Shown here: piece after piece, positions 1,363 to 55,354 of the stretch
How the letters are laid out: the number at the start of each line of letters is the position of its first letter
Numbering within the stretch: the stretch's first letter is position 1
NCBI GenBank assembly: GCA_002049455.2
Contig: KV918973.1
Coordinates: 1-64,000, forward strand
Reading direction: 5' to 3'
DNA length: 64,000 nt
DNA from: Porphyra umbilicalis
Lineage: Eukaryota; Rhodophyta; Bangiophyceae; Bangiales; Bangiaceae
The notes under the pieces: model-generated
What the model was told of the DNA's origin: nothing
Seen by the model: the letters and a program-made list of their open reading frames with translations, nothing else
The model's database searches: none
Made by a program: the position numbers and the translations under genes

Positions 1363-1513
1363 ACGGACCGGTCGATGAGACTACTGCGACCGCCGCCGAC
1401 GGGCGTCGACGTCACACCGAGGCGCCCTCGTGCGAGACCGCGCGGCTCGCTCGGCGGTGCGCGGGGTGCGCGCGGTGCCGCCGCCCTGTCGTTTGCCCCG
1501 CGTCTGCAGCACC

Positions 1514-2575
1514 ATGTCCCCGCCGTCGCCCTCGCCGCGCGGCACGCCCCGGGGTGGTCGTTCCGCGCGGGACCGCGCGGCGCTTGCCGCCGTGCGAGAC
1601 GTGGCGTCGCGCTTGGACGGGCGCCTCCACACCCTGCCGCCGGCGAGTGCCGCGAGCGCCGCCAACCGCGTGCCCCCCCCCCGCCCGTCGACGCAGGTGG
1701 CTCGCCGGTGCGCTCCGTCGGGGCCAAGCGCGCCCGCACCGACCGGTCAGTGTCGGGCGGGGCGACCAAGCGCCGCCGGCGGGGCGAGAAGGGTATTTTT
1801 CCCGAGCCCGAGCCCCCCGCCCGCTCCCGTGGGCAACGGTGGCGGGCACGACGCGCACGTGTTGCGGCTGCGCGAGGTGCTGGCGCTGCTCACCGCCACG
1901 CCGCGCGGGGAGGTGTCGGGCGGCCCCTGCCCTTTCCCCGGGGTGTGCTGCTGACCGGTCCGCCCGGGACGGGCAAGACGCTGAGCGTCCGGGTGCTCGC
2001 CTCACACGCGCGGGCGGCCAATGGTGGCGCCTCCGTGCCTCTGTACCTCATCCGCGGCGGCGAAATCCTCTCCAAGTACGTCGGCGAGGGCGAGCGCCGC
2101 CTCCGCCGCCTGTTTGACGCTGCGACCGCGGCGGCCCCGTCCATCTTGTTTTTCGACCAAGTCGACGCCCTCGCGGCGACGCGGGACGACAACCGCGACC
2201 ACTCGCGGGTCGTCAACACCCTTCTCGCCTTGCTCGACGGCTTTCGCTCGCGCGGTCGCGTGTTGGTCCTCGCCGCGACCAACCGGGTGGACCTGTTGGA
2301 CTCGGCGTTTCGTCGTCCGGGCCGGTTTGACTTGGAGCTCGACTTTCAGCTGCCCGACGCGTCCGACCGCCGGCGGCTGATGGAGCTGCACGCAGGCACG
2401 TCGGCAGACGAGACGGCGGTCTCGTACGTCGTCCGACGCACAGACGGCTGGTCGGGAGCGGAAATCCGGGGCCTCGCCACCGAAGCCGTGTGCTGCGCGT
2501 GGCGCCGGACCGACCCGCAGTGGCTCGAGGCGGTGGCGACCGCCGCCACAGACCCGGCGACAGTCGGGGGTGGTG

Positions 2576-2611
<36 letters not shown>

Positions 2612-3793
2612 CCGCCGCCGCTCCCAGACGTGACGCACGCGGACTGGGACGTGGCGCTGGCCTCCCGAGCGCAGACCGCCCGGGCGGGGGTATCCCCGGC
2701 GCTGCACCGGCCGCTGCCGTTGCGCCTGAGCGCGCTCCTCGAGCCGACCGTGTCGGGGTGGTGGGGGTCCTCGACACGCGCTTTCCGCTGGACAAGCTGA
2801 CCACCCCCGGCGCCGAGTGGGCCACCCAGGCCGTGGGCGGGCCGACGTCGAGTGCGTCTGCCGCCGCCATGCTCGCCGCGTGGCCGGTCCTCCCGCACCG
2901 CCTCTGCATTGCGGGGCGTGCGGGCATGGGGCAGTCGCTGGTTGGGGCTGCGGTGCTGTGCCACCTGCAGTCCCTGCCCGTGTTTGACGTCGGCTTCCTC
3001 TCCCTCACTGCGAGTGGCACCGACGGGCAGCTGCCGCTGCTGCTGTCCACGGTGGCGGCGGCCGTCCGCGTCGCGCCGTCGGTCCTGTACATGCCCGACG
3101 CCGAGATGTGGATGGCCGAGTCTGCCGCCGCCGCCGACGGGCGCCCACCGCGCTGCTGCGCAGCGTGCTGGCCCGCATCCCCGTCGACACGCCCGTGTTG
3201 GTGCTCGGCGTTGCCAACGCGACCGAGGACGTGACAAACGCGTGGGCGCCGACGTGGTCGACGGTCGTGCGCATGGGCGGGGCGTCGGAGCAGCGGCGGC
3301 GGCAGTACTGGTGCCCGGTCGTCGACGCGCTCAAGCGGTCGTGCGCAAGCACAAGACCGGCGTCGCGCGTGCCCGCGTCACCGATTGGACGTGGCGTTGG
3401 ACGGCGTGCACCTCACGCACGCACCCGTGGACGAGATGGAGCGCGTTTTTCAGCAGCTCCTCGACGCCCTCGCGAGCGTACACGAGGCAGCAGCACCTGC
3501 GGCGCACGGGATCGACGCGTGGGTGGCGACGGTGTTGGCGGCCATCGACCAGCTGTCTGACAGCGGCGGCCGCACGTCCCTCGGTGGCGCACGTGCCGCT
3601 CGGTCGGCCTCGCACGCACCGGACGGTGTGGCTGCTGCCGCATCTGTGGGGCACCGCGCCGGTAGCCGCGACACAAACGACTGACGCGACGCCTGTCCCA
3701 CCGTCGGACGAGGCGTCGACCGCGCCGACACCCCGAGCGGAGCGGGGCAAGCGCAACACCCGTCCCGTTCGCCGCTGCAACATCATGCTGTAG
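1514..3793 (+). CDS. ATAD2/Yta7-like double AAA ATPase, frame broken
   Basis: Probable chromatin-associated AAA ATPase of the ATAD2/Yta7 family (nucleosome-linked ATPases in the nucleus). The start chosen is ATG 1514 (context CACCATG) after the TATA box. The first AAA domain has Walker A GPPGTGKT (1957-1980), Walker B FFDQ (2152-2160), sensor-1 ATNR (Asn at 2281) and the RRPGRFD arginine-finger segment (2311-2331). The order and spacing match ATAD2 (ILSKYVGEGERRLR, then PSILFFD, then VNTLLALLDGF). A second, degenerate AAA lies at about 2875-3215 (GRAGMGQSL, then PSVLYMPD, then LLRSVLARIP), as in ATAD2. The frame changes near 1910-1950, 3140, 3340-3385 and 3600. No bromodomain was recognised. 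The Walker B Glu is Gln, which in AAA proteins blocks or slows hydrolysis. Either sequence indels near homopolymers or a decaying gene could explain the breaks. Confidence 0.7.
2577..2606 (+). repeat. Run of 30 G inside the AAA gene
   Basis: Thirty consecutive G between the two AAA domains; in the first-domain frame it encodes polyglycine, followed by polyalanine. Runs this long slip easily in replication and sequencing, can form G-quadruplexes, and are an obvious source of uncertainty about the frame. Confidence 0.9.
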
Positions 3794-17123: not shown

Positions 17124-17802
17124 AGAGAGCGTCGGCAAGTCGGGCGTGGCTATCAAATGTGGGTAGAATGTGGGTCGCCGACCCACGTCGGATATACCCA
17201 CATCTTACCCACATTTAGCGTCGGCAAGTGTTCAAATAACGGTCGACACGATTTGAGCTCTCCACATCTACCGCAACGGCACAGCAGCGACCTCTGTGCG
17301 AGCAACACCTTCCAATTGACCTCCACACCTCCACCCCAAGCACCATCACCTCTTTCCCCTTGGGGAGACGCCCCGGCCGACCATATGACAGGGCGGCGGT
17401 CGATGGAGATGGGATACAGTGGGCACAGTCCGAGTTTTTGGATGGAGGGGCGCCGGCAGTTAAGGGCGTGGGGGGGGGGCGGGGGTGACGGCATCGGGGG
17501 GGGTATGGTGCCGGTTGACAAAGGCAGCTTGTACGGTGCAAGATGATGCGCCTTCTCGATACACCCGAAACTGGAGACACGAGCGCCCGTGGTGGGCGCC
17601 AAGCCCGGGCTGAGACGAGCGGTGGTGGCACAACCAGCGCCACGTGTGTGGCCACGTGGTCTTCACCGACCGGTATTTGGCGTGGGTCGGATGACCCAGA
17701 TAGCCACAAATGGGTTCCAAATGTGGGTACCAGCTGTAACGTGGCATGAAACGTGTCCCCGACCCACGCCACCGACCCACATTTGACTTGCCGACGCTCT
17801 CT
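17124..17802. mobile_element. Non-autonomous element R1 (679 bp, 3-bp TSD)
   Basis: Ends are AGAGAGCGTCGGCAAGTC and its exact reverse complement, flanked by ATT (17121-17123 and 17803-17805). Several copies of ACCCACATT in both orientations lie just inside the ends, and the left 90 bp can fold on itself. Open frames inside are repeated unchanged in R2 and have no protein features. R1 gives the empty-site sequence for the Harbinger insertion in R2. Confidence 0.85.
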
Positions 17803-18002
17803 ATTAACGAAGCTTCTATGCTGCTGTTGGAACACGTGGCGTTTGGCCACCAGATGGCAAACGTTGATTGGTGCAAAGGGTGGGCCAAATATTTATCCTT
17901 CTTAATATTCATCTCAGCTGAGGGAGTTATCCATATTCAATTACGAAGAATCGGCATGTCGCCAAAGAATGATCGGATCCGAGCAAGTTCCACACATGTA
18001 AT

Positions 18003-18096
18003 AGAGAGCGTCGGCAAGTCGGGCGTGGGTATCAAATGTGGGTAGAATGTGGGTCGCCGACCCACGTCGGATATACCCACATCTTACCCACATTTA
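18003..18096. mobile_element. Element R2, left fragment
   Basis: First 94 bp of a second R copy, flanked on the left by AAT (18000-18002). It is nearly identical to 17124-17217 of R1 and stops at the TTA where the Harbinger element is inserted. Confidence 0.9.
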
Positions 18097-18118
18097 GAGC
18101 ACACCCAACAACGTCGGT

Positions 18119-18366
18119 TGCGAACCGCTTTTGCGTATTATTCGTTAAACGTGGCATATTTGCCAGTTATGGGCAGAGGTATGGGAAAACCGGTCATCCC
18201 ACCAACGTCGCAAACCAGATCTGCGAACCGAGCTACTGGTGGGCCAGATATAAGTCCAACCGGATAATATGGCGCTGGTTCGCAGGAGGTTCGCATTTTT
18301 CCATCGGCCGACCATACCACTGACGTTTGGGCAGACGTTTGTGCATTTCCGAACGTTTTGCGAACC
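18119..18366. repeat. Left subterminal GCGAACC motifs
   Basis: GCGAACC or its complement GGTTCGC recurs at about 18119, 18218, 18275, 18287 and 18359, and again near the right end (about 27438, 27511). Short repeated subterminal motifs in both orientations are typical binding sites for the transposase or its Myb-like partner; the role here is inferred. Confidence 0.5.
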
Positions 18367-19185
18367 GAATCTGTCTACAATTGTGTCTAAACGGGGGTCA
18401 AACACCCAAATCGGGACGATCGCAGACAAACACACGTTGCGTTGACGATCGCACAGGCGTCTCGAGCTCTGATATTCATGAGCATGCGGTCGCGAGTGGC
18501 CGCAGATTCCGTTCGAGGCGCAGGCGGCGCTCATTGCCGGGCCCTGTGGGGGGGGGGGCCGGCGGGACACCGTTTTTTCCTGGTGGACATCCGCCGCCAC
18601 GCGCGATTCTGGGTCGGCCCCCCCACGGCTGAACGGTTTGATTAGGGGGGGGGGCCGCCTAGAGGCACTGTCGCATGGGTTGGCGCGCGGCCCCAATCGG
18701 TCGTCCAGCGGAATTCTTTGGCGGGGTGGCCCCCAGTTGACGCGCTGCTGGTGCCACCAACCTGCGCTGGGAGCCAATCGGGGGGGGGTTCCGCGCAGCG
18801 CAACATTGTGTGGCCGGCATGTGCCTGTCCGCGCGCAGCCGCACCCGCGGGAATGGGCCGTGCATGGGGGTTTTCAGGCAGCGCCGCGCAGCCCACATTA
18901 TTGGTCACGCGGCCGCCCGGGACCTGCCAATCGCGCTTTCTGTGGGGGGGGGCGCGGAGCAACAGATCGGCGCGGTGCGGCCGCCACCAGCGGCACGTCG
19001 ACCACACCGTCGTCGTCGGGGGCAGCGCGATTGCGGCACCGCCGTCGTCGGCGTCGTCCATCCCGTTTCTCCGTTCTGCCCGTCTCCGTCGCCGGCGCAG
19101 CGGCCGTGAGCGGCCGTGTTGACGGCCGCCTTTGCGGCCGCTTCTGCGGCCGCTCTAGCTCTCGTCACGTCGGCTGAACTGGTGG

Positions 19186-22152
19186 ATGGAGATGGACGCG
19201 TCCACTGATGATGGGTCTGGGTCGTCGAGCGATGACGGCCGCGGGCAGTCGGAGGGCTCCGCGGACGAGCTGCTTGCGGCCGTCATCGGAGCGCGATCTC
19301 TGTTCCTAATGCGCCGTCACCGCAGGAATGCGGCGCAGCGACCGCGCAGACGGCGTTTTGTCGGGTCTGTGGCCGGGCGGCGTCCCAACCGGCCACGTGA
19401 TTTCGACCAGGGTATGCGCGGCATCATGCGGGATTATTTTGGTGTGGATGGGCAGCCGCCTGTGTATGGAGAAGAGACGTTTGAGCGTCGCTTCCGTGTG
19501 CCACGGTCTGTTTTTATGCGCATTTATGAGGCCATCCGGGACCGGCCATTTTGGCGGCAGAGCATCAATGCGACGGGGCGGCCACAAGCTTATGCTCTGC
19601 AGAAGCTGGTGGCCGCCTTCCGTGTCCTCGCGTACGGGGAGTCGTATGATCGTGCGGATGAGTATGTCCGGCTGTCCAAGTCTACAATTGAGGTGGCCAC
19701 GAAGAAGCTGATTGAGTTTATTGTTGAGGAGTGGGAGCCCGTCTACCTGCGGCCTCCTAACGACGAGGAGGTCAAGCGCATGCTGGAGCGCAACGCAGCA
19801 CGGGGCATGCCGGGATGCATCGGCAGCCTCGATTGCTCGCACTGGGAGTGGGCCGCGTGCCCAAAGGGGCTTGCTGGGCAGTATCAGAACCGCAAGAAGC
19901 GGCGCTCCATCGTCATGGAGACGGTTTGTGATGAGGACCTTTACATCTGGCATTTCTTTATCGGGGCGCCGGGGAGCCTCAATGACCTCAACGTGTTACG
20001 TATCTCACCGTTGTATTTTGATGTGGTGGAGGGTGTGTGGCCGCCGAAGTCTTTCTCTTTCTGTGTGAATGGTCGTTCTCGTCGTTTGTTGTATTATCTT
20101 ACTGACGGTGTTTATCCCAAGTATCCATTTTTTGTGTCTCCGTACCCCAACCCCATCACACCCGCAGAAAAATGTTTCAACCGGCTCCAGGAAGCGCTGC
20201 GCAAGGATGTCGAGCGGCTCTACGGGGTTATGACCGCGAGATTCCACATTCTTCTACACCCTGGCCGATTTGGCTCTGTAGAGCAGATGATGCTTGCCGG
20301 CAAGGCGGCCGCCATTCTGCACAACATGGTCGTTGAGCAGAGGCGTGGCCGGTATGTCGCTCATGAGCGTATGGCAGCGGCGGCGGCCCCAAGGGATGGG
20401 GAACCTGCGGCCGCCGCCGATGATGGCCATGCCGTTGGCGCAGGCGACGTCGGCTGGGCTGGCAATACGGGAACAGGTGTGGCGGCCGCCGGCGATGTCG
20501 AATCGGCGGCGGCCGCCGGCGGAGACCCCTTCGCCGGCGCAGTTGGGCAGGGAGGAGCTGGTGCCGATGACGTCGCTGCCGCGGCCGCCGGCCTGGGCGC
20601 CGCGGCGGCGGCCGCCGGCGATCGATCGCCAGCGGGCATCGGCGGTGGCGGAGCAGATGATGGAGCAGGCGCCACCGCTGCGGCCGCCGGTCTGGTCGGC
20701 CCGGCGGCGGCCGCCGGCGGTGGCTCGCCAGCGGGTGTGCGTGGCGGAGAAGGAGCTGGAAGAGCGGGCGCCGCCGCCGCGGCCGCCAACTTTGGTGGCT
20801 CGGCGGCCGCCGCCGGCGGCGACTCGCCAGCGGGCGGGCGCGGAGGTGACGGAGCTGGTGGTGCGGGCGCCGCCGCCGCGGCCGCCGTCTTTGGTGGCTC
20901 GGCGGCCGCCGCCGGCGGCGACTCGATAGCGGGCGTGCGTGGCGGAGAAGGAGCTGGTGGTGCGGCCGCCGCCGCCGCGGCCGCCGACTTTGTTGGATCG
21001 GCGGCCGCCGCCGGCGGCGCCTCGCCATCATGCGGGGGGGACGTCGGATGTGTGGATGGTGCGGGCGCCGCCGCCGCGGCCGCCAACTTTGGTGTCTTGG
21101 CGGCCGCCGCTGGCGGGGACTCGCCAGCGGGCGTGCGTGGGGGAGACGGCGCTGGGGGTGCGGGCGCCACCGCCGCGGCCGCCGACTTTGGTGGCTCGGC
21201 GGCCGCCGCCGGCGGCGACTCGCCAGCGGGCGTGCGGGGTGGAGAAGGAGCTGGTGGAGCAGGCAGCGCCGCCGCGGCCGCCAACTTTGGTGGCTCGGCG
21301 GCCGCCGCTGGCGGCGTCTCGCCAACGGGCGTGCGTGGAGGAGAGGGCGCTGGTCGTGCGGGCGCCACCGCCGCGGCCGCCGGCTTTGGTGGCTTGGCGG
21401 CCGCCGCTGGCGGCGACTCGCCAGCGGGCGTGCCTTCAAATGATGCAGCTCGTGGTGCGGGCGCCGCCGCCGCGGCCGCCAATTTTGGTGGCTCGGCGGC
21501 CGCCGCTGGCAGCCACTCGCCAGCGGGCGTGCGTGGAGGAGATGCAGCTGGTGGTGCAGGCGCCACCGCCGCGGCCGCCAACTTTGGTGGCTCGGCGGCC
21601 GCCGCCGGCGGTGACTCGCCAGCGGGAGGGCGCGGAGGTGACAGAGCTGGTGGTGCGGGCGCCGCCGCCGCGGCCGCCGGCTTCGGTGGCTCGGCGGCCG
21701 CCGCTGGCGGCGACTCGCCAGCGGGCGTGCGTGGAGGAGAGGGCGCTGGTCGTGCGGGCGCCGCCGCCGCGGCCGCCAACTTTGGTGACTCGGCGGCCGC
21801 CGCCGGCGGCGACTCGCCAGCGGGCGGGCGCGGAGGTGACGGAGCTGGTGGTGCGGGCGCCGCACCCGCGGCCGCCGGCGTTGTCGGTCCGCGTGCGGTT
21901 GCGGGAGGTGGCTCCACAGCCGCAGGACCGGCCGCTGATGCGGCCGCCGCGGCGGCCGCAGCTCCCCGTTTGGCGGCTTTGCCGCACGCTCCCGTGGTTT
22001 TGGGCGGCGCGGACCCCCCGCCGGGTTCTTTTCTGTTCCAGTTGCGGGCGCGCCAGACCGCCACGGACAGAGCAGAGTTCTTCTATCTCCGCGACGACCT
22101 GGCGGCCCATATCTTTGATGATCGCGGGTCCCTTCTGGAGCCGTATTTGTAG
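19186..22152 (+). CDS. PIF/Harbinger DDE transposase with long Ala/Gly repeat tail
   Basis: Transposase of the Harbinger element (DDE_Tnp_4 type nuclease). The 988-residue frame starts at ATG 19186 (MEMDASTDDGSG). Residues 1-65 are acidic then Arg-rich. Residues about 70-390 are the transposase: FERRFRVPRSVFMRIYEAI, the helix-turn-helix-like LAYGESYDRADEYVRLSKST, then catalytic D216 (GSLDCSHWEWAACP), D267 (GAPGSLNDLNVL) and E343 (KDVERLYGVMTARF). All three acids are present. Residues about 395-930 are Ala/Gly-rich, mostly a 33-residue tandem repeat (AAAANFGGSAAAAGG ... SPAGVRGGEGAG). The last 60 residues are again ordinary protein (FLFQLRARQTATDRAEFFYL). Plant and animal PIF transposases are usually 350-450 residues, so the tail is unusual. 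Confidence 0.93.
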   Translation: MEMDASTDDGSGSSSDDGRGQSEGSADELLAAVIGARSLFLMRRHRRNAAQRPRRRRFVGSVAGRRPNRPRDFDQGMRGIMRDYFGVDGQPPVYGEETFERRFRVPRSVFMRIYEAIRDRPFWRQSINATGRPQAYALQKLVAAFRVLAYGESYDRADEYVRLSKSTIEVATKKLIEFIVEEWEPVYLRPPNDEEVKRMLERNAARGMPGCIGSLDCSHWEWAACPKGLAGQYQNRKKRRSIVMETVCDEDLYIWHFFIGAPGSLNDLNVLRISPLYFDVVEGVWPPKSFSFCVNGRSRRLLYYLTDGVYPKYPFFVSPYPNPITPAEKCFNRLQEALRKDVERLYGVMTARFHILLHPGRFGSVEQMMLAGKAAAILHNMVVEQRRGRYVAHERMAAAAAPRDGEPAAAADDGHAVGAGDVGWAGNTGTGVAAAGDVESAAAAGGDPFAGAVGQGGAGADDVAAAAAGLGAAAAAAGDRSPAGIGGGGADDGAGATAAAAGLVGPAAAAGGGSPAGVRGGEGAGRAGAAAAAANFGGSAAAAGGDSPAGGRGGDGAGGAGAAAAAAVFGGSAAAAGGDSIAGVRGGEGAGGAAAAAAAADFVGSAAAAGGASPSCGGDVGCVDGAGAAAAAANFGVLAAAAGGDSPAGVRGGDGAGGAGATAAAADFGGSAAAAGGDSPAGVRGGEGAGGAGSAAAAANFGGSAAAAGGVSPTGVRGGEGAGRAGATAAAAGFGGLAAAAGGDSPAGVPSNDAARGAGAAAAAANFGGSAAAAGSHSPAGVRGGDAAGGAGATAAAANFGGSAAAAGGDSPAGGRGGDRAGGAGAAAAAAGFGGSAAAAGGDSPAGVRGGEGAGRAGAAAAAANFGDSAAAAGGDSPAGGRGGDGAGGAGAAPAAAGVVGPRAVAGGGSTAAGPAADAAAAAAAAPRLAALPHAPVVLGGADPPPGSFLFQLRARQTATDRAEFFYLRDDLAAHIFDDRGSLLEPYL
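20665..21880 (+). repeat. 99-bp coding tandem repeat, about 12 units
   Basis: Unit starts near GCGGGCGCCGCCGCCGCGGC at 20764, 20863, 20962 and so on, always 99 bp apart, so the frame is kept and the product gains 33 residues per unit. Units differ by a few substitutions. Because the unit is a multiple of three and lacks stops, all three plus frames and two minus frames stay largely open across it. Confidence 0.9.
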
Positions 22153-22554
22153 CGTTCAATGGTTTTTTTTTGCCATCATGGCTTTTTTTTTTCCTCACAC
22201 ATTGGCACGTCGGCGGACGCCACCACGCCGACCCGGGATAGGAAAGACGCTTGGACGGCCTCCGTTCTATCTAGGAAGACGGACGAGGCCGCCGCTCTGT
22301 ATGGCGTAGGCGGATGTTCACCAGTGGCTTATACTTTCAAGCTGCAGCATGACTGGTGTACAAGTGAGAGGATTTTGCCGTGCTCGCTTCTCGGACGGAG
22401 TCACAGGGTCGGACAGAGTCGGTGTGTAGGAAAAAAAACCCCGGCGAAGGGGAAAAAAAAACCGTGTATGATTGTCGTACAATAGTCGATGCAGTAGTCG
22501 AGCACTCCACACGCGCAGAGACCCCACCGACACAAATATTAACAGAGATACAAC
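22153..22554. other. Intergenic region between the convergent Harbinger genes
   Basis: Contains T runs at 22161-22168 and 22182-22191 just after the transposase stop, and A runs at 22432-22439 and 22454-22462 flanking CCCCGGCGAAGGGG. These could hold the 3' ends of both transcripts. No reading frame of note. Confidence 0.5.
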
Positions 22555-25152
22555 TCAAGCCAAGTCACCATCCGCGCAATCGCTGCCACTGGTACCACAG
22601 GCAGCGTCCTCCTCGTCGTCGCCCGATTCGCCAGCGGCCGCATTATGCGGCCGCGGCGTCATGGAACAGCTTGGACCCGATACGGTGTTCCTGGCCGCCG
22701 TGAAGCGGGCCTGCTTGGTCTGCAACGAGTTCCAGCCTCGCCCCTTCCTCCGCTTGACCGAGCCGATACCGGCCGAGGCCGCAGCGCGGCGGGCAACGGC
22801 CGCGCTTGCGGCCGCGGCTGGTGATGCGCCGGTACGCGGCGACGCGTCGACGCCGTCACTCGGAGAAGATGAAGACGGGGGCAATGCGGCCGCACTCGCG
22901 GCCGCGCCAGACGCCAGGGACCCGACTGTGTTGTCAGCGGCCGGCGCCAACGCGGCCGCTTCGCCGCCGTTCACAGCCACGCCGCCAGGAGTACCGGGCG
23001 CTCCACCAGACCCGGGAGACGCGGCCGCACCACCACTTGGAGAAACTGCAGATGCTGGCGATGCGGCCGCACTTGGAGCCCTACCTACGGCCGCACCCGC
23101 CGCCGCCTCAGCGGCCGCGGTAGCGGCCGCAGAGGTGCCCGACATAGACGGCGCAGTTGTTGTCGAGCGCGAAGCGACCCGTGCCTCCGCGGCCGTGGCC
23201 TTGCGCAGTCTGGCGTTGGAGAGCAGAAGCCCCCGCTCCATCTCGTTCTTGCGCCACTGCTCCGCCTCACCCGTCTCACGCACGTCCTTGGCCTTCCAAA
23301 AGTCAATGTCGGCGCGCTCGATGGCCGTCTCAGATAAGTACTTGAGGGCGGCCGCCGTCGTGGCGGCCTCCCTTTGGATAGCAATGTCAGTCGAGGCCGC
23401 CGCTTTGGCGGCCTTCGTACCGATAGGCCGCTCTTGGAAGAGGCCGCGCCGCCTACCGACCGTGGAGCTCGAGTCGTCGTCCGAAATGTCCTCGACGCCC
23501 CCGCCTGGCACAGGACGGCGGCCGCGAGCGGCGGCCGCCGTGGCGGCCGCCCCCGACGCGCCGCTGAACTTGTCCAACTTGCGCATGACCGTCCAACACT
23601 TGACCCAATCGGCTCCTCTCGTGCCGCCCTTCTTCACCACCAAGACCGGCGCGTCCCCGTCGTTGTCGTCCGCTTGCACGGCCTCATACAGGTTCTCGGC
23701 GTCAAAGTGCGCGGTGGCCATGCGTATCAGGTCCTCGTCGGTCAAATTGCCCGTCATCTGGCGACGCCCGACGGCCACCATAGAGGATGAGAAGCGTTGA
23801 ACGTTCTTGAAAACTGAATAGCGCAGTTCGCGGTCGATGGCAGTGTCCGTGCGCGCCCTGCGTCCAGGGCCCATCGGGCAATGGGACTTGTACCCGTTGA
23901 CGACTGCAGCGGCAAAGGTTGCTTGGCTCTGGTCGGTACCGACCACCGGGTCTTGCGCCACCGCCAACCAGGCCTGGCAGAAAGCTTCTCGCTCTGCCTC
24001 GGTCCATCCTCGGCCGCGTCCTCTGCCCCTGGCGGTGGGGGACTCGTTGTCGCCAGCGGCGACGGCGTCGGCTGTCGCAGCGGCCGCTGAGGAGGAAGGG
24101 GGACCGCCACCGTCCCCGCCTCCACCGGCGGCCGCTGCACCCCCTCCATGTCCGTCCCCGCCTGGGCCGGCGGTGGGTGCACGCCCTCCATCGCCGACTC
24201 CGCTTCCGCCGCCGCGGCCGCCGTCGGCGGCCGCGGCTCCGGCTGTGTTGCCAGATCCACTCCCGTGAGCGGCCGCTGAGGCGGCCGCTCCGTGACCTGA
24301 TCGGCTGGGCGACGTGACGCCGCGGGACTCTGCGTCGCCGCCATCGCCTCGTGTAGCGTCAGAGGCCGGGAGACCGGCGGTGGCTGCAGCGACAGCATGT
24401 TCAGCCCCGCGCACCTCTGCAACCCCTGCTCCGCGGCCGCCGGGAGGGCAGCGCCCTCCGAGTGCTCCGCGCCTGCCCGCCCCGCGGCCGCGGACTGCAA
24501 ACCCGGCATCGGCGTCGACGGTAGCGCCTCCGACGCCGCGTTCACCGTGTCCGCCGGCGCCGATTGGTCCGCCGAGTGCATGTCCACGTCCGCGGCCTCG
24601 CCCAAGCCCCGATGACCCCCCCGCGACGAGGTTGTATCCGCGGCCTGCGACGCTGCAGCTTGGAGGGGCCTCGAAATCTCCGTCAGCGCGTCGGTCTGCG
24701 GCCGTGGCGGCGGCGTCGGGGGCCGCCCGATCGGCGGCCCCGCCGGCCGCGGCCGAGGAGGCGGCAGGTGACCTTGTCTCATCTGCTGCCGCCCGTGCCG
24801 CCGCGCCTCCTACCAATTGCTCTCCTGCAGGCAGTCCGGACTGCCCTCCCGCAGCAGCCATTGCGCAGTCCGGTCCCCGTTGTGCGCTCTGCGGGCAAGC
24901 TCCTGCAGCTCCCGCAATTCCCCCGCGTCCACCGGAGAAGTTGGTGGCCGCGCTCGCTCCGAGAGACTTGGCGGACTGGATGTTCCGACAGGTGGCCACG
25001 TCGGCGCAGGTGGTCCTTGACGCGGCGGGCTTGGGGGACTCGGCGGCCGCTGGGGCGACGGCCGCCGGGTTGCAGAGGGTGGACCTTGACCAAGTGGGCT
25101 TGGCGGCCGCGCCGGGGGCGGCCGCCAGGCGGACCCAGATGCGCCTTGACAA
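22555..25152 (-). CDS. Myb/SANT-like DNA-binding partner of the Harbinger transposase
   Basis: Second gene of the element; in PIF/Harbinger systems the Myb-like protein binds the transposon ends and brings the transposase to the nucleus. The 865-codon frame has a recognisable domain at residues about 383-530: GWTEAEREAFCQAWLAVAQD, then PVVGTDQSQATFAAAVVNGY, then LRYSVFKNVQRFSSSM and the late WVKCWTVMRKLDKF, the order seen in plant Harbinger SANT proteins. The C-terminal 330 residues are Ala-rich but include an amphipathic block (SETAIERADIDFWKAKDVRE). The N-terminal 380 residues are very low in complexity. A second frame on this strand (23754-24782) reads more like normal protein there, so the true 5' part may be spliced; the stated start is provisional. 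Confidence 0.75.
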   Translation of the reverse strand: MSRRIWVRLAAAPGAAAKPTWSRSTLCNPAAVAPAAAESPKPAASRTTCADVATCRNIQSAKSLGASAATNFSGGRGGIAGAAGACPQSAQRGPDCAMAAAGGQSGLPAGEQLVGGAAARAAADETRSPAASSAAAGGAADRAAPDAAATAADRRADGDFEAPPSCSVAGRGYNLVAGGSSGLGRGRGRGHALGGPIGAGGHGERGVGGATVDADAGFAVRGRGAGRRGALGGRCPPGGRGAGVAEVRGAEHAVAAATAGLPASDATRGDGGDAESRGVTSPSRSGHGAAASAAAHGSGSGNTAGAAAADGGRGGGSGVGDGGRAPTAGPGGDGHGGGAAAAGGGGDGGGPPSSSAAAATADAVAAGDNESPTARGRGRGRGWTEAEREAFCQAWLAVAQDPVVGTDQSQATFAAAVVNGYKSHCPMGPGRRARTDTAIDRELRYSVFKNVQRFSSSMVAVGRRQMTGNLTDEDLIRMATAHFDAENLYEAVQADDNDGDAPVLVVKKGGTRGADWVKCWTVMRKLDKFSGASGAAATAAAARGRRPVPGGGVEDISDDDSSSTVGRRRGLFQERPIGTKAAKAAASTDIAIQREAATTAAALKYLSETAIERADIDFWKAKDVRETGEAEQWRKNEMERGLLLSNARLRKATAAEARVASRSTTTAPSMSGTSAAATAAAEAAAGAAVGRAPSAAASPASAVSPSGGAAASPGSGGAPGTPGGVAVNGGEAAALAPAADNTVGSLASGAAASAAALPPSSSSPSDGVDASPRTGASPAAAASAAVARRAAASAGIGSVKRRKGRGWNSLQTKQARFTAARNTVSGPSCSMTPRPHNAAAGESGDDEEDAACGTSGSDCADGDLA

Positions 25153-25259
25153 GGGGGGCTCCCCAGACCCGATGATGACGGCCGGACTTGGTCACGGGGC
25201 GCACTTGCTCGAGGTGGGCTCTCCGGTGGCTGCCAGCCTCGCGACGGCTGGCATGCGCG

Positions 25260-25640
25260 AGTGGAACTCGGCGGCCGCTGCGGCGACGGCCGCCAATCGG
25301 GGGGACGCAGGCCTTGACGGGGCGGGCTCGGCAGCCGCTGCGGCGGCGGCCGCCAATCGGGGGGACGCAGGCCCTGACGGCGCGGGCTCGGCGGCCGCTG
25401 CGGCGGCGGCCGCCAATCGGGGGGACGCAGGCCTTGACGAAGCGGGCTCGGCGGCCGCTGCGGCGGCGGCCGCCAATCGGGGGGACGCAGGCCTTGACGA
25501 AGCGGGCTCGGCGGCCGCTGCGGCGGCGGCCGGCAATCGGGGGGACGCAGGCCTTGACGAAGCCGGCTCGGCGGCCGCTGCGGCGGCGGCCGCCAATCGG
25601 GGGGACGCGGGTCTTGACGATGCGGGCTCGGCGGTCCTGA
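25260..25640 (+). repeat. 60-bp tandem repeat, about six units
   Basis: Unit of exactly 60 bp (GCGGGCTCGGCGGCCGCTGC, then GGCGGCGGCCGCCAATCGGG and GGGACGCAGGCCTTGACGAA) repeated with few changes. It is open on both strands: AANRGDAGLDEAGS on plus, RQGLRPPDWRPPPQRPPSP on minus. Which strand, if either, is translated is unclear. Confidence 0.85.
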
Positions 25641-27522
25641 CGGCAGTGGACCGAGGCAAGGAGGGTGTACAGGTTGAGGTGGTGGCGCCTCGGCCCCAGA
25701 TGCTCGTGGTGGAGCCTCTGATATGGGCCGAGTGCGCGCCGCCCACGGACACGGGCAGGATGGCGCGCACAGGGGATGATCGTCACCGACGCCAAGCGTG
25801 CGTCGGCACATACGGCAGAACTGCTGCAGACCGCGCCGGCGCTCCGTTTTTGAGATCGGACGCGGCGCGGGAAGAACCATGCTGCCGCAACGGCCGGTCC
25901 TCGCACAGTCCGACGCCTCGTGGGCAGGGAGCGAAAGGCGGCCGCTTCTGCACAGAGCGGCCGCCAAAAAGGTGAGGCAGCCCGCCTTCCGCCGCACCCT
26001 CGTCCAAAAACGGTCGGGACCAGCGGCGGGCACAGAGAAAGACGGCCGCCAAGAGCAACACACACGCGCACACGGTGCCGCCGCGGCCGCCAACGACAAC
26101 GGCGGCCGCGAAAAAGCGCGCGGACACGCACGTCCTCCCTCCCGTGATGCAACGCGGCCGCCAACGACAACGGCGGCCGCTACAAAGCACGCGCGCTCGA
26201 CGTCTCCTCTCCCGCGCTGCAACGGCGGCCGCTGGCGACGATGGCGGCCGCACGCACGCACGCGGATGCACAATGCTCCTCTCTCGGCGCCGAACGGGTC
26301 ACGGCCCCGGTGCGGTTGCCCCCGGCGCTGCCACCCCGCCCACAAATGGTCCACAAACAGAGTCTGCCCCCAACGCAAGCGACCGTTCGAGACGATGCGC
26401 GGCGCCCCCACCCTGCCACTGCGTAGACGATGACAGAGGGGCCCGCAGGGCTCCACCGCGGCCGTTCTCGACGGTCTCGCAGGTGGCACAACCCCACCGT
26501 ACGCCCCAAAAACAGGCGGCCGCCCTCGATTGCCCCCTCGCTCGGGGGGAATCGGGCGGCCGCCTTTCTTGCCTGTCACGCTCAGGGGCCCTGCAGGCCA
26601 CGCCGAGCGTGGCACGCGTGGCCCGCAGGCCTCGCTCAAACGCCACAGAGCTCCCTGCGCGACATGTGGCGCCCAGTCGGCCGTTCACGGTGGACGGCCA
26701 ATCGAGGGTGTGGCCGGGGAGGTGCACAGCGAGAGTGCGTCTGACCAATGAGCATGCGGATCGCTGACACAAAACTCGGAGGGGGTCGCACGATTCTGCG
26801 GCTCCGCAAGGGACGCGATCGAGCGTGGCCCCTGCCGCGTCTCGGCAGCCTTGCAGGCCGGGCCGCCCGACCGCCGCAGGCGGCCGCGTGGGAGCCCGCC
26901 CTGCGTCACGGTGACCGGCGGACACCACGCGGCCGCCTCACAGGCGCTTCAGAACAGAATGCTCCAGTGTCGATCGAGGCGAAAGCGCCACCAGATTGCA
27001 CGCATGCTGTACGTCTGCCGGCTGAACGGACCAATGAGAGACCTACAAATGACTGCTGTCAGTCGCGAGATGCGACAGCGCCGCGAGATGATGCGAGATG
27101 CTGCCAACGTGTCTCCGACAGTTGTGCGTTTGACCTCGTCGTGTCTACTCGACCGCAAGAATTTGCAGCCATTTGAAGCCTATCGCGCTGCGTGTCTCAC
27201 TTGACCGGCTTATTTGCTGACGATTGGGGTCCAGATCAGCGTGATCGCGATGTCGATCGATGGCCTGTTTGCTTGAAATGTCGCACTGGACTGTCGGAAT
27301 GTGGACATCTCACGGGAAAGCCGCTCGCAAGCTCCAGTTCGCAGGTCGACAAACAAGCAACGTCACCTTCTCCGTTTCCCATACACTGCGATCTGCCGAC
27401 AGAAGAAAACAAGTACTCTGGATCCGAGCGGAGCGGGTTCGCAGAGCCTGCGCATATCGCTGCCGAAACGCTTTTGGCCACTCATAGGCGCACACGTTGC
27501 GCTCTTAAACGGTTCGCAGATC
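25641..27522. other. Right-hand region of the Harbinger element
   Basis: No gene is certain. A minus-strand frame (26639 down to 24810) contains FCRMCRRTLGVGDDHPLC, a possible zinc-binding cluster, and ends in a helical stretch (DAGELRELQELARRAHNGD), so it might be an upstream exon of the SANT gene. Paired GCGGCCGC sites are frequent from 25938 to 26935 in sequence that is not obviously coding. From 26950 to 27522 composition returns to normal and nothing is recognised. Confidence 0.4.
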
Positions 27523-27554
27523 GTTCGCAACCGACGTTGTTGGGTGTGCTCTTA

Positions 27555-28138
27555 GCGTCGGCAAGTGTTCAAATAACGGTCGACACGATTTGAGCTCTCC
27601 ACATCTACCGCAACGGCACAGCAGCGACCTCTGTGCGAGCAACACCTTCCAATTGACCTCCACACCTCCACCCCAAGCACCATCACCTCTTTCCCCTTGG
27701 GGAGACGCCCCGGCCGACCATATGACAGGGCGGCGGTCGATGGAGATGGGATACAGTGGGCACAGTCCGAGTTTTTGGATGGAGGGGCGCCGGCAGTTAA
27801 GGGCGTGGGGGGGGGCGGGGGTGACGGCATCGGGGGGGGTATGGTGCCGGTTGACAAAGGCAGCTTGTACGGTGCAAGATGATGCGCCTTCTCGATACAC
27901 CCGAAACTGGAGACACGAGCGCCCGTGGTGGGCGCCAAGCCCGGGCTGAGACGAGCGGTGGTGGCACAACCAGCGCCACGTGTGTGGCCACGTGGTCTTC
28001 ACCGACCGGTATTTGGCGTGGGTCGGATGACCCAGATAGCCACAAATGGGTTCCAAATGTGGGTACCAGCTGTAACGTGGCATGAAACGTGTCCCCGACC
28101 CACGCCACCGACCCACATTTGACTTGCCGACGCTCTCT
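27555..28138. mobile_element. Element R2, right fragment
   Basis: Continues R2 beyond the Harbinger insertion; nearly identical to 17219-17802 of R1, ending in the reverse complement of AGAGAGCGTCGGCAAGTC and flanked by AAT (28139-28141). With the left fragment it totals 678 bp, matching the 679 bp of R1. Confidence 0.9.
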
Positions 28139-28499
28139 AATATCTCATGCAGAAGGGCACCCCGTCGATTGTGTAAGGAAGAATCGTCGTGTGGGCCGTT
28201 TGCAACGCCTCAGAGCACTGTAGTTCAAAGCAAATCGCAATCAAGTCGCCTCAGTACGCTCGACTGGAGGGGGCCCCTTACAGCAGCCGTCGGCCCGCCC
28301 CGGATGGAATGCGGTCGGGATTCAAATGCACTGCCGGACGGAAAGTCCAGTACATGGGAATGACAACGAGAGGCCAGAGAGCAGATCGTTACAACGTTCC
28401 TGCGAGCTGGGCGTCATCACATCATTCACAGTGCTGGAATCACATTTCCCCGTCACACGTCCCACCAGCTGGGCATCATGTCGGCCGCCCCCGCTGTAT
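28139..28499. other. No supported gene
   Basis: Ordinary-composition sequence between R2 and repeat D1; no motif seen on either strand. Confidence 0.4.
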
Positions 28500-49386: not shown

Positions 49387-50388
49387 CGGGGCCCACGTGG
49401 CGCGCCAGCGATGCCACAGCAGGTTCCGAGGCAATGCTCTCAGCCAAAAAACGAGTGTTGTCGATCTGCTTGGTTCTGTACTTGAGTTTTGAGCACATTT
49501 CGCAATACCGCGGAGTAGCTAGCACTGATGTCTCCCATATACCTGCTCGTGCTGGCCCCTTCACACATTGTCTCGAGAGGCGCAGGAATGCGTCCTGGAC
49601 ATCGGATTCAAACACAAGATGGGCACGTATGTGGCAACTGCATCTTGCGGCGCTCCAGACGAGTGTCCCGCTGTGATACTGCCGAACAAGGGACCATCAC
49701 GTCGAGTCAGCCGAGTACAGAGATGATGTCCCTCACACAGAGACAGCATGGATGTGTCTCACGCGGTTCATATCTGCCGTGCAGACGAGCTCCAGAGCCC
49801 CCCCTTCAACATCAAGGTTGTGTTCCATAAGAAGCAGTTCAGCATATCCCTTCAGCACCGCTTCTCTTCGTTCTTGTTCACCGCCGTGAACACTTGCTCT
49901 GAATTTACATTGGCGCCCCGTACGACCTGCTCGCCTTCCTACGGCCCGCCACGTCAGTCCCTCTGTGCGCTGTGGCGGTGCTCACGTCGTCCCTAGGAAC
50001 TCCCATAATACATCATAAAGCAGTTAAGATCCAGGCAAGCAATCCACGAGTACAGACTAGGGAGCAGAGAAGCACAAAGAGGCTGTTAGTAACCCTGGAC
50101 ACCTCAGAAATTGCCATGCAATGCAGCACAGGAGGGGCAGATTCTCAGACATGCACACGCCCCGCTGGTACACGCATAACTCCTGAAAAGACCGCAGAAC
50201 TTAGATACGACAACCATGAGACACAGCTTGAGAACACTGCGTTGTCACCTTCAAAACGCCACCAAGTAGAAGAGGAAGGGGACCATGCAGGCACACGAAC
50301 AGGTATCACGGCAACACTAAACAGCAGTGTCAGTAAACCACTCCAGAGAGATGAACCGGGGGCAGGTTAGCAGAGCATGTCTGCGTGG
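49387..50388. other. Left flank of the copia insertion; no gene
   Basis: Less GC-rich than the surroundings. No frame with recognisable features. Confidence 0.4.
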
Positions 50389-50393
50389 CACAA

Positions 50394-50811
50394 TGTTGGA
50401 CTGTGATGCTCGTCGCCGACTCCACTGGCGGTTCGCGGTTGGACGATGGTCGGTGACCCTTATGGTACCCCACATGGTACATTTGCAAGACGTGGTCAAG
50501 TTGCACACATTTGTGTTGGGTCATCTTGGGGCGTTACTTTTGGCATGTTTTGGATTTGATCTTCGCTTTGCTCTAGTGGCTTTTGATTTGGTGAGTGATT
50601 CGATTTGGTGCGAGGGCGTGGGCGTCGGTGTGGGCGCGAGAGGGGGGAGCACTGGGGCCGGTGGGGACTATTTTAGAGGTGCTCTCGGTTGGGAGAGGCG
50701 GGCGATCCTTAGGACAACCAACAAAGCACGTTCGCACACACACACACAAGCTCAAGCCACTCAACCACTTCACCGTGGTCCCCCAACCCCTATCCCCACT
50801 GCGTTTCAACA
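50394..50811 (+). repeat. 5' LTR
   Basis: 418 bp, TGTTGGACTG ... GCGTTTCAACA. Contains an ACAC run near its end. A clear TATA box was not seen. Confidence 0.95.
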
Positions 50812-50825
50812 GGTTATGGGCCCAG
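50812..50825 (+). promoter_or_regulatory. Primer-binding site, initiator tRNA-Met anticodon type
   Basis: GGTTATGGGCCCAG directly abuts the 5' LTR. It is complementary to the anticodon stem-loop of initiator tRNA-Met (CUGGGCCCAUAACC), not to the tRNA 3' end. The same site follows the LTR of Drosophila copia, whose reverse transcription is primed by a 5' half-tRNA. Confidence 0.85.
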
Positions 50826-50972
50826 AGCCGGGGCTGTGACAAGAGCAAGGTGTGCCAGCTGGTGTCGCGACGGTCGCGGCAAGTGCGAAGAAGACGAGGT
50901 CAAGGTGGTTCAAGGACGTGACGGTCAAGGCGAACGGCTCGGCAAGGTCGGGCGCTACGACAAGACGAGATC

Positions 50973-52991
50973 ATGGACGGAGGCGCTGCCGGCATGGGCG
51001 GCATCAAGATCGACAAGTTGACGGAGACGAACTTCCACGAATGGCGTCAGCGCATTAAGATGGTCCTCGCGCTGCGCGACCTGGACGATATGCTTGACGA
51101 AGACGGCAAGCCGACGGACGCGGATGCCCGCGAGTTGGCGGTGTGGAAGCGTCGAGACACGAAGGCGAGCGCCATCATTGGGCTCACCCTTGGATCTGAG
51201 CAGCTCGAGCACGTGTCGGGCTGCAAGACGACGGCAGAAATGTGGTCGACGCTGCAAGGTGTCTTCCAGCGCAAGAGTTTGATGAACAAGATGAAGGCGC
51301 GACGCGAGTTCTACACCGTCGAAATGACCGTCGGTGAGGGCATGCTGGGCTACATCAACCGCGTGCGCAACCTCGGCGAGAACCTCAAGGCCATGGGCGG
51401 CGAGGTGACGGAGATGGACGTTGCTATGAGTGTCCTCAACGGGCTGACGTCCAAGTACGAGAACCTGCTGGTGGCTCTCGACGCCAAGGGCGAGGACGAG
51501 CTGAGCCTCGACTTTGTCAAGAGCCGCTTGCTTCAGGAGGAGCGGCGGCAGGCGGACAAGTCACCGTCGAGCAAGCGCATTGGCGACATGGCACTCGTCG
51601 GCGCCAACTATCGAGGTCAAGGCCGCCGTGGTGACCTCTCCAAGATCGAGTTTTACTACTGCCATAAGCTTGGGCATATCTCTCACGATTGCCCAGAGCT
51701 CAAGGCCAAGAAGCAGAGACAGGACAAGGTGGCCGCGATTGCGGCTGACGATGGTAGCGACAGCGACGACGCTATCTGTTTGGTGGGCAATGCGGCTGAC
51801 ACCGATGACATCTCCAAGTCGTGGCTTGTCGATTCTGCGGCGTCTGCACACATGTGCTGGATGCGCGGGTGCTTCGACGACTACCAGACGACTACGGGAC
51901 GCAGCGTCACCATGGGTGACAAGGGGTCCGTTGCCACGGCGGGCGTCGGAACCGTCGTGCTCAATGTCATCGTTCACGGCAAGACGCGCAAGATCAAGTT
52001 GGAGAAGGTGCTCCATGTTCCTACCATGGGCTTCAACCTCATGTCGGTCGGCATGATGGAGGAGCGTGGTGCGGAAGTGTCATTCAAGGGCGGTAAGACG
52101 ATCATCAAGATTAGCGACAAGGTCGCTGCGTGCGGCACGCGGAAGAGTGGGCTCTACCACCTGGACATGGCCCCACTGTCGGATATTGCTGCGGTGGCCT
52201 CTCTTCTGCTCTGGCATGAGCGCCTTGGGCACGTCAACGTGGCTGGCGTTAAGCGGATGATGAAGAACAAGGACATCGATGGACTCAAGTGCTCTTCCAT
52301 GGCGGTCAAGGACGTCTGCGAGCCGTGCGTGTATGGGAAGGCGGCTATGACGCCTATGCCTAGTGCAGGAGGAGGTCGAGTGACCAAGCGCCTGCAGCTC
52401 GTGCACTCGGACCTGGGCGGGCCAATGTCGGAGCCGTCGCGTGGCGGTGCGCTCTACTTTGGCACCTTCACTGACGACTTCTCCCGCTGGACAGACGTGG
52501 TCTTCCTGCAGAAGAAGAGCGATCTGCTCTCTGAGTACAAGAAGTGGCTGACGAAGGCCCAGCTGCACACGGGAACCAAGATCAAGATCCTACGCTCCGA
52601 CAATGGCGGCGAGTATGTGTCGAACGCATTCAAGGCTCTTCACGATGAGAACGGCACGACGCACCAGACCACGGTGCCCGACACGCCGCAGCAGAACGGG
52701 GTTGCTGAGCGGCTTAACCGAGTTCTCGTGGAGATGGCTCGCACCATGATGCGACACAAGGACGTCGATCAGGATCTTTGGGCAGATGCCATCAAGACGG
52801 CGGTGTACATCAAGAATCGCGTCACCAGCCGGGCGCTTCCCGTCGGCAAGACGCCTTTTGAGCTGTGGAGCGGGAAGAAGCCCGACGTAAGCCACATGCG
52901 GGTGTTTGGGTCGACATGCTGGGTGGTGCCGCACAAGAGTAATATATCGACGGCAAGTTTGGCGACAAGGCGGCGAAGGGCGTCTTCTTAG
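50973..52991 (+). CDS. Copia polyprotein, gag-protease-integrase part
   Basis: Start ATG 50973 (MDGGAAGMGGIKIDKLTETN), 161 bp after the LTR. Gag (UBN2-like) covers residues about 8-200: NFHEWRQRIKMVLALRDLDD, GYINRVRNLGENLKAMG. The zinc knuckle at 227-240 reads FYYCHKLGHISHDC, so the first Cys of CX2CX4HX4C is Phe227. The protease active site is D287 (LVDSAAS). Integrase has the HHCC finger (HERLGHVN ... CEPC) and D480, D543, E579, a D,D-35-E spacing (HSDLGG, RSDNGGEY, NGVAERLN). The frame runs into a stop at 52989-52991 because of a shift at about 52939-52945; the polyprotein continues in another frame. Confidence 0.93.
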   Translation: MDGGAAGMGGIKIDKLTETNFHEWRQRIKMVLALRDLDDMLDEDGKPTDADARELAVWKRRDTKASAIIGLTLGSEQLEHVSGCKTTAEMWSTLQGVFQRKSLMNKMKARREFYTVEMTVGEGMLGYINRVRNLGENLKAMGGEVTEMDVAMSVLNGLTSKYENLLVALDAKGEDELSLDFVKSRLLQEERRQADKSPSSKRIGDMALVGANYRGQGRRGDLSKIEFYYCHKLGHISHDCPELKAKKQRQDKVAAIAADDGSDSDDAICLVGNAADTDDISKSWLVDSAASAHMCWMRGCFDDYQTTTGRSVTMGDKGSVATAGVGTVVLNVIVHGKTRKIKLEKVLHVPTMGFNLMSVGMMEERGAEVSFKGGKTIIKISDKVAACGTRKSGLYHLDMAPLSDIAAVASLLLWHERLGHVNVAGVKRMMKNKDIDGLKCSSMAVKDVCEPCVYGKAAMTPMPSAGGGRVTKRLQLVHSDLGGPMSEPSRGGALYFGTFTDDFSRWTDVVFLQKKSDLLSEYKKWLTKAQLHTGTKIKILRSDNGGEYVSNAFKALHDENGTTHQTTVPDTPQQNGVAERLNRVLVEMARTMMRHKDVDQDLWADAIKTAVYIKNRVTSRALPVGKTPFELWSGKKPDVSHMRVFGSTCWVVPHKSNISTASLATRRRRASS

Positions 52992-54901: not shown

Positions 54902-54924
54902 AAACAAGAACCGCCGCGGCAACA

Positions 54925-54936
54925 AGCAAGGAGGAG
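54925..54936 (+). promoter_or_regulatory. Polypurine tract
   Basis: Purine-rich AAGCAAGGAGGAG-type sequence immediately before the 3' LTR, the expected primer for plus-strand synthesis. Confidence 0.7.
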
Positions 54937-55354
54937 TGTTGGACTGTGATGCTCGTCGCCGACTCCACTGGCGGTTCGCGGTTGGACGATGGTCGGTGAC
55001 CCTTATGGTACCCCACATGGTACATTTGCAAGACGTGGTCAAGTTGCACACATTTGTGTTGGGTCATCTTGGGGCGTTACTTTTGGCATGTTTTGGATTT
55101 GATCTTCGCTTTGCTCTAGTGGCTTTTGATTTGGTGAGTGATTCGATTTGGTGCGAGGGCGTGGGCGTCGGTGTGGGCGCGAGAGGGGGGAGCACTGGGG
55201 CCGGTGGGGACTATTTTAGAGGTGCTCTCGGTTGGGAGAGGCGGGCGATCCTTAGGACAACCAACAAAGCACGTTCGCACACACACACACAAGCTCAAGC
55301 CACTCAACCACTTCACCGTGGTCCCCCAACCCCTATCCCCACTGCGTTTCAACA
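54937..55354 (+). repeat. 3' LTR
   Basis: 418 bp, apparently identical to the 5' LTR; followed by the CACAA duplication. Confidence 0.95.

Follow-up and report, generated by a model that had tools for sequence, protein, structure and literature searches.

A TNA-type Harbinger-like element nested in a short Pangu-type element of Porphyra umbilicalis

Anatomy of the locus

The window analysed here, a stretch of 64,000 nucleotides at the start of contig KV918973.1 of the red alga Porphyra umbilicalis (assembly GCA_002049455.2), carries two copies of a short DNA element, hereafter R1 and R2. The second copy is interrupted by a 9455-bp TNA-type PIF/Harbinger-like element with two convergent genes (the insert; 18097–27551, plus strand). 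The window is part of the contig numbered C213, and the genome searched was the 83.8-Mb assembly of 665 contigs, in which contigs and fetched loci are cited below by C and L numbers, respectively. Ten matches to light-harvesting domains and 12 to phycobilisome linkers, four of the latter on C665, fit a photosynthetic red alga.

R1 (17124–17802) is an intact, non-autonomous element of the ANT/Pangu type, 679 bp in length, with perfect 18-bp terminal inverted repeats (AGAGAGCGTCGGCAAGTC) and flanked by the 3-bp duplication ATT. About 200 bp further on, R2 is divided into a left part of 94 bp (18003–18096) and a right part of 584 bp (27555–28138), with the outer duplication AAT at 18000–18002 and 28139–28141. 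The insert lies between these parts and is itself bordered by the two TTA copies of the 3-bp duplication that it made, at 18094–18096 and 27552–27554; no strand is assigned to R1, to the parts of R2 or to the TTA copies. A first-pass annotation, prepared from the window alone, had described R1 as an intact 679-bp element and R2 as split at a TTA by a 9455-bp element with perfect 29-bp ends, and both descriptions proved exact to the base. It had further proposed that removal of 18097–27551 together with one TTA restores R1 almost exactly from 94 + 584 bp, and had made its reading depend on a TTA on either side of the insert, which is indeed present. In the alignment run on R2 after this removal, the halves joined end to end, and two differences from R1 remained: a single C/G substitution and a G-run whose length differs by one base.

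Because the flanking duplications differ (ATT/ATT for R1, AAT/AAT for R2), the two copies are separate insertions. The empty site that R1 offers is that of a paralogue rather than of the allele as it stood before the insertion. The "preserved empty site" of the first-pass annotation thus stands as an uninterrupted copy nearby but not as the allele itself. Among ten R copies compared, R1 was the closest to R2, with one substitution, and the next nearest showed five.

The insert terminates in perfect 29-bp inverted repeats starting GAGCACACCC (18097–18125, plus strand, and 27523–27551, minus strand). Its transposase open reading frame (ORF; 19159–22152, plus strand) comprises 997 residues from stop to stop, or 988 from the ATG at 19186, and contains the motifs SLDCSH, SLNDLNV and DVERLYG. 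It matched Plant_tran (PF04827; E = 1.9e-59, 201 bits against a cut-off of 22) and DDE_Tnp_4 (45.7 bits against a cut-off of 24.8), as expected of a DDE transposase of the PIF/Harbinger type. An array of about 13 copies of a 99-bp unit (20454–21941, plus strand) lies in the transposase frame, in which each unit encodes 33 residues rich in Ala and Gly. The second gene (22555–25191, minus strand) spans 878 residues from stop to stop, or 768 from the ATG at 24861, and includes a region with the motifs W-T-E-A-E-R, D-P and G-T at 23560–24024, which may resemble the Myb/trihelix-like ORF known from other Harbingers. A 60-bp tandem array (25164–25703, plus strand) is also present in the family copy on C10 (8.1 copies). 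Searches for viral relatives of the transposase core found none, and no relatives of this transposase or of that encoded at the R-related locus L040, described below, were found in the PDB at E ≤ 0.1.

The assignment of the insert to PIF/Harbinger, which the first-pass annotation had based on the TTA duplication and the two-gene content, is upheld by the transposase domain together with the second convergent gene. The TTA duplication is present but does not by itself identify the insert, because the family targets TNA in general, TTA being one of its forms; it is the transposase domain that is diagnostic.

Copies, targets and relatives of the two families

A genome search for further copies of the insert, suggested in the same annotation, returned many. 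The 29-bp end occurred 159 times with up to three mismatches, and chance is excluded because the same letters read backwards did not occur at all. Perfect 3-bp duplications were found at all 14 family copies that had distinct flanks and were complete within one fetched locus (3266 to 5029 bp), as well as at the window copy (TTA/TTA) and at the C10 copy, which is spread over two loci (TAA/TAA). With neighbouring ends paired by eye, the copies included many of about 9 to 11 kb, as well as a class near 3.65 kb and a few of other sizes. The genome listing contained 90 exact ends, and TNA stands before 88 of them; the two exceptions are the opposite ends of a single copy. Across the window and the fetched loci, all 40 distinct flanks carry TNA (TAA 11, TTA 10, TCA 10, TGA 9), preceded by C in 24 of them, compared with 31% C in the fetched loci. 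Of note, two insert-family elements abut at each of two loci (L058 3993–3997 and L065 6313–6317), with a single shared TAA between them, which suggests insertion into an existing duplication. The same element with identical 12-bp flanks was also observed on two contigs (L055 and L066, on C53 and C602), either through segmental duplication or through duplicated assembly.

The insert is recent, as is the activity of its family: over the first 2000 bp, 7 to 21 substitutions separate it from the seven other copies that ranked best, and identity was 97 to 100% in the 40 matches scored, all longer than 500 bases and otherwise of any length. Copies of the 3.65-kb class match the window copy at roughly 88 to 98% in their outer parts and at 78 to 80% in the middle 1.1 kb, so that simple deletion from the window copy does not account for the class; a mosaic structure, 90 to 97% like the window copy in the outer parts and about 79 to 80% in the middle, was noted at L053–L057, L059, L061, L066 and L068. 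The 99-bp array comprises about 13 copies of the unit in the window, 18 on C9 (L072), 25 on C2 (L073), 26 on C171 (L071) and 31 on C10 (L070). Its flanks nevertheless differ little from those in the window: identity is 99.5 to 99.9% over the alignable 5′ coding sequence and, for C9, C2 and C10, 98.7 to 98.9% over the 3′ sequence; on C171, just 98 bases of the 3′ flank aligned, of which 95 were identical. Because the reading frame in these four copies stops short of the C-terminus of the window copy, the array and the tail look weakly constrained. Genome-wide, at least 150 Plant_tran domains scored above the cut-off (150 scored of 624 first-look candidates, insert-family copies included), which amounts to many Harbingers for a genome of 84 Mb.

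The R family was counted over the fetched loci, where 38 copies differed in their flanks and matched at each end with no more than two mismatches. A perfect 3-bp duplication was found in 33 of these (ATT 12, AAT 11, ACT 4, AGT 3, GAT 1, ACA 1, CTT 1), with ANT in 30 of the 33 and a wider target of C-ANT-G (C in 26 of 33, G in 20 of 33). According to PMC4482050, Pangu elements are characterized by ANT duplications, ends beginning AG or GG, a length of about 3.5 kb and two ORFs. The ends of R1 and R2 begin AG (AGAGAGCG), and a relative of 3275 bp with the 18-bp ends of R and the duplication AGT/AGT is located at L040 (C92), the ends of which R1 matches at 81 and 84%. This relative encodes a 476-residue DDE_Tnp_4 protein (E = 5e-15), and its two other searched ORFs had no Pfam match at E ≤ 0.1. 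It thus presents the length, the DDE transposase and the motif-free second ORF of a Pangu element, and is probably autonomous. Owing to the ANT duplications, the AG ends and this 3.3-kb same-ended relative with DDE_Tnp_4, the most plausible reading of R1 and R2 is as non-autonomous members of the Pangu group, which would make them cousins of the insert within one superfamily. The earlier description of the insert as lying inside "another DNA transposon" therefore holds in that it is nested in a separate element, but the host is not unrelated, since its ANT duplications and Pangu features place it in the same superfamily.

Nesting among the R and Harbinger families is not unique to the window, because L039 and L045 show further cases. 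At L039 (C243:16012–25298), an R copy with the outer duplication AGT/AGT is split, at another TTA position, by a different Harbinger of 8613 bp, which has ends GGGCAATCCCARCAACGTCGG and a TTA duplication. Without this Harbinger, the R copy was identical to R1 in 641 of 681 aligned columns. The nested element belongs to a sister family, with a transposase 63% identical to that of the insert across 335 residues and a second ORF 34% identical to the second gene across the motif region. L039 was considered as the autonomous partner of R and rejected, as it is an R copy with a different Harbinger nested in it. At L045, one R copy hosts a further R-type element, bordered by an ACA duplication. A separate arrangement was observed at L049 (C269:78405–79792), where two inverted R copies stand 48 bp apart and differ by two substitutions; their duplications are exchanged (AAT..ATT / ATT..AAT), which is the pattern expected from inversion between both copies.

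Octamers in the insert and other features of the window

The octamer GCGGCCGC occurs 84 times in the 9455 bp of the insert (8.9 per kb), compared with 0.55 per kb in the remaining window. Genome-wide, 53,436 occurrences were counted (0.64 per kb; 36,442 for the reversed control), so that the density in the insert is about 14 times that of the genome. All 34 octamers in the transposase ORF are in the Ala-Ala frame, as are 20 of the 25 in the second ORF, and a further 10 lie 3′ of position 25975 in a region taken as non-coding. Outside the arrays, 44 were observed against about 2 expected under a second-order Markov model. The density is a trait of the insert family, because the locus of the sister element, L039, has just 0.62 octamers per kb, although another octamer-dense stretch was observed on C1 near 29–40 kb.

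Conservation of the octamers was mixed. Five short copies, whose middle segment is 78 to 80% identical, retained 9, 9, 6, 8 and 9 of 10 octamers there, whereas each kept 6 of 25 other GC-only 8-mers; for the first of these copies, Fisher's test gave p = 5.6e-4, which is indicative only, given overlapping 8-mers and related copies. No clear octamer excess was detected in the full-length diverged copy L064 (32 of 35 against 126 of 149; counted from the side of L064, 32 of 33 against 127 of 146), nor was there any in its non-coding 3′ part (7 of 8 against 22 of 22). The octamers are therefore not claimed as conserved functional sites. It is unlikely that they act as DNA-level sites for the element or the host, such as binding sites or a chromatin signal, beyond providing Ala codons in a GC-rich genome.

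Elsewhere in the window, a Copia-type long terminal repeat retrotransposon, judged from its ORFs, was found at 50383–55354, with 429-bp direct-repeat blocks that differ at six positions. The reading frame at 1375–3231 encodes an AAA ATPase domain (PF00004, E = 3e-38).

Order of events and relation to known Harbingers

The anatomy, the duplications, the two copy families and the empty paralogue are read here as an ordinary nested insertion of a TNA-type Harbinger into a short Pangu-type element, to which we assign a probability of about 0.92. R2, as a copy of a short ANT-duplicating Pangu-group element, would have inserted some 200 bp from the near-identical R1, presumably mobilized by the transposase of the 3.3-kb same-ended relative. 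Later, the 9.5-kb PIF/Harbinger-like element would have entered a TTA within R2 by cut-and-paste, probably moved by a DDE transposase and an accessory protein of its own kind, with a staggered cut followed by repair of the 3-bp gaps resulting in the duplicated TTA. The sequence of R2 first and the insert second is the simplest account and is strongly implied rather than proven. The exact R/insert junction has a single occurrence in the genome, which supports the order given in the first-pass annotation; the order, called "directly readable" there, holds but falls short of proof, since a jump of the composite would leave the same outer AAT.

Several observations weigh against this interpretation. 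Six further matches to the junction were found with two mismatches in the 25-base pattern; two of them (C13:273843 and C586:11878) have 12-base flanks unlike R, and the remaining four were not among the fetched loci, so that a second, diverged junction may exist. The insert-family copy at C42:113323–122909 has no TNA at either end, five of the 38 R copies have no perfect duplication (two at L015, and one each at L038, L041 and L043), and three of the 33 perfect R duplications are not ANT (GAT, ACA and CTT). For the second gene of the insert, the NAM-associated match falls short of the threshold (E = 0.028), the second ORF of the sister element at L039 likewise stays below the cut-off for this domain (E = 2.8e-5, 25.5 bits against 27.7), and the structure prediction for the second protein was too poor for use (predicted local distance difference test score of 49 in the Myb-like region). 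Lastly, the transposases of the insert and of L040 barely align (BLASTP E = 0.03), and because this alignment is marginal, their common superfamily rests on the shared Pfam domain DDE_Tnp_4.

The alternatives address different steps, and the chances given to them need not sum to one with the figure for nested insertion. The Harbinger could have entered an R copy elsewhere, with R and insert then moving here as a 10.1-kb unit by means of the ends of R. The outer AAT/AAT of R2 is equally compatible with such a composite jump, and R ends can bound large units, as at L039, where AGT/AGT lies outside an R copy with its nested 8.6-kb Harbinger. The single exact junction, with no identical donor or sibling seen in the genome, nevertheless makes this improbable, as does the fact that the nearest relative of R2 among those compared, R1, is empty, lies 200 bp away and differs by one substitution. 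The chance is slighter still that R1 is not independent of R2, having arisen either with it in a tandem segment duplication or from an R2-like copy after excision of the insert. R1 and R2 are mutually the closest of the ten copies compared (one substitution against five for the next), and the single TTA in R1 does not exclude excision, because precise excision is known for PIF/Harbinger elements such as mPing. However, a segmental duplicate would share its flanks, which differ between R1 and R2 along with the duplications (ATT versus AAT), and excision would require that R and insert had first jumped as a unit. Least probable of all is an assembly artefact in which two repeats were misjoined. 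The repetitive nature of both families would favour one, and the identical 12-bp flanks of the copies on C53 and C602 suggest that some assembly sequence is duplicated, but the perfect TTA and perfect ANT duplications at both nested levels fit real insertions rather than a misjoin.

The nested insertion is clean but ordinary, as both the kinds of element involved and the co-occurrence of TNA and ANT groups are already known. Ectocarpus has been described as holding both ANT and TNA Harbingers, their genes arranged tail to tail, with TNA as the classic Harbinger pattern (PMC12477816). The insert resembles the TNA-type elements of that alga in its TNA duplication and in its tail-to-tail gene pair, here the transposase and the second ORF. 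The groups are defined in PMC4482050, in which PIF/Harbinger is strictly TWA, and the insert family, which uses TNA, departs from that definition. Under it, the family would fall, by target pattern alone, with NuwaII, which inserts at TNA flanked by C and G (C-TNA-G) and whose pattern the family shares (TNA in 40/40; C at −4 in 24/40, a preference and not a rule). Its strong Plant_tran match suggests plant-type PIF/Harbinger transposases; the label TNA-type Harbinger-like, as used here, implies no clade assignment. At 9.5 kb, the insert is also longer than the average of about 4.1 kb given for candidate autonomous PIF/Harbinger elements in the same source, and it differs from the TNA-type elements of Ectocarpus in the Ala-rich 99-bp array within its transposase frame.

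R, in turn, is similar to Pangu (PMC4482050) and to the ANT Harbingers of Ectocarpus (PMC12477816) in its ANT duplication, its AG ends and its 3.3-kb relative, which encodes a DDE_Tnp_4 protein; the C-ANT-G target of R is more specific than theirs. Variable-number tandem repeats and nested insertions are described for PIF/Harbinger elements of Medicago (PMC2213677), which are comparable to the present case in the nesting and in 60-bp tandem repeats within an element. There, retrotransposons and an unidentified element are nested in Harbingers, whereas here a Harbinger is nested in a Pangu-type element. A description of the insert family was not found in the open-licence literature, which does not show it to be unpublished. 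Two groups of one superfamily with mirror-like targets, TNA and ANT, are thus joined in one readable nested insertion, and with at least 150 Plant_tran loci, the P. umbilicalis genome would be suited to asking which transposase residues set TNA versus ANT.

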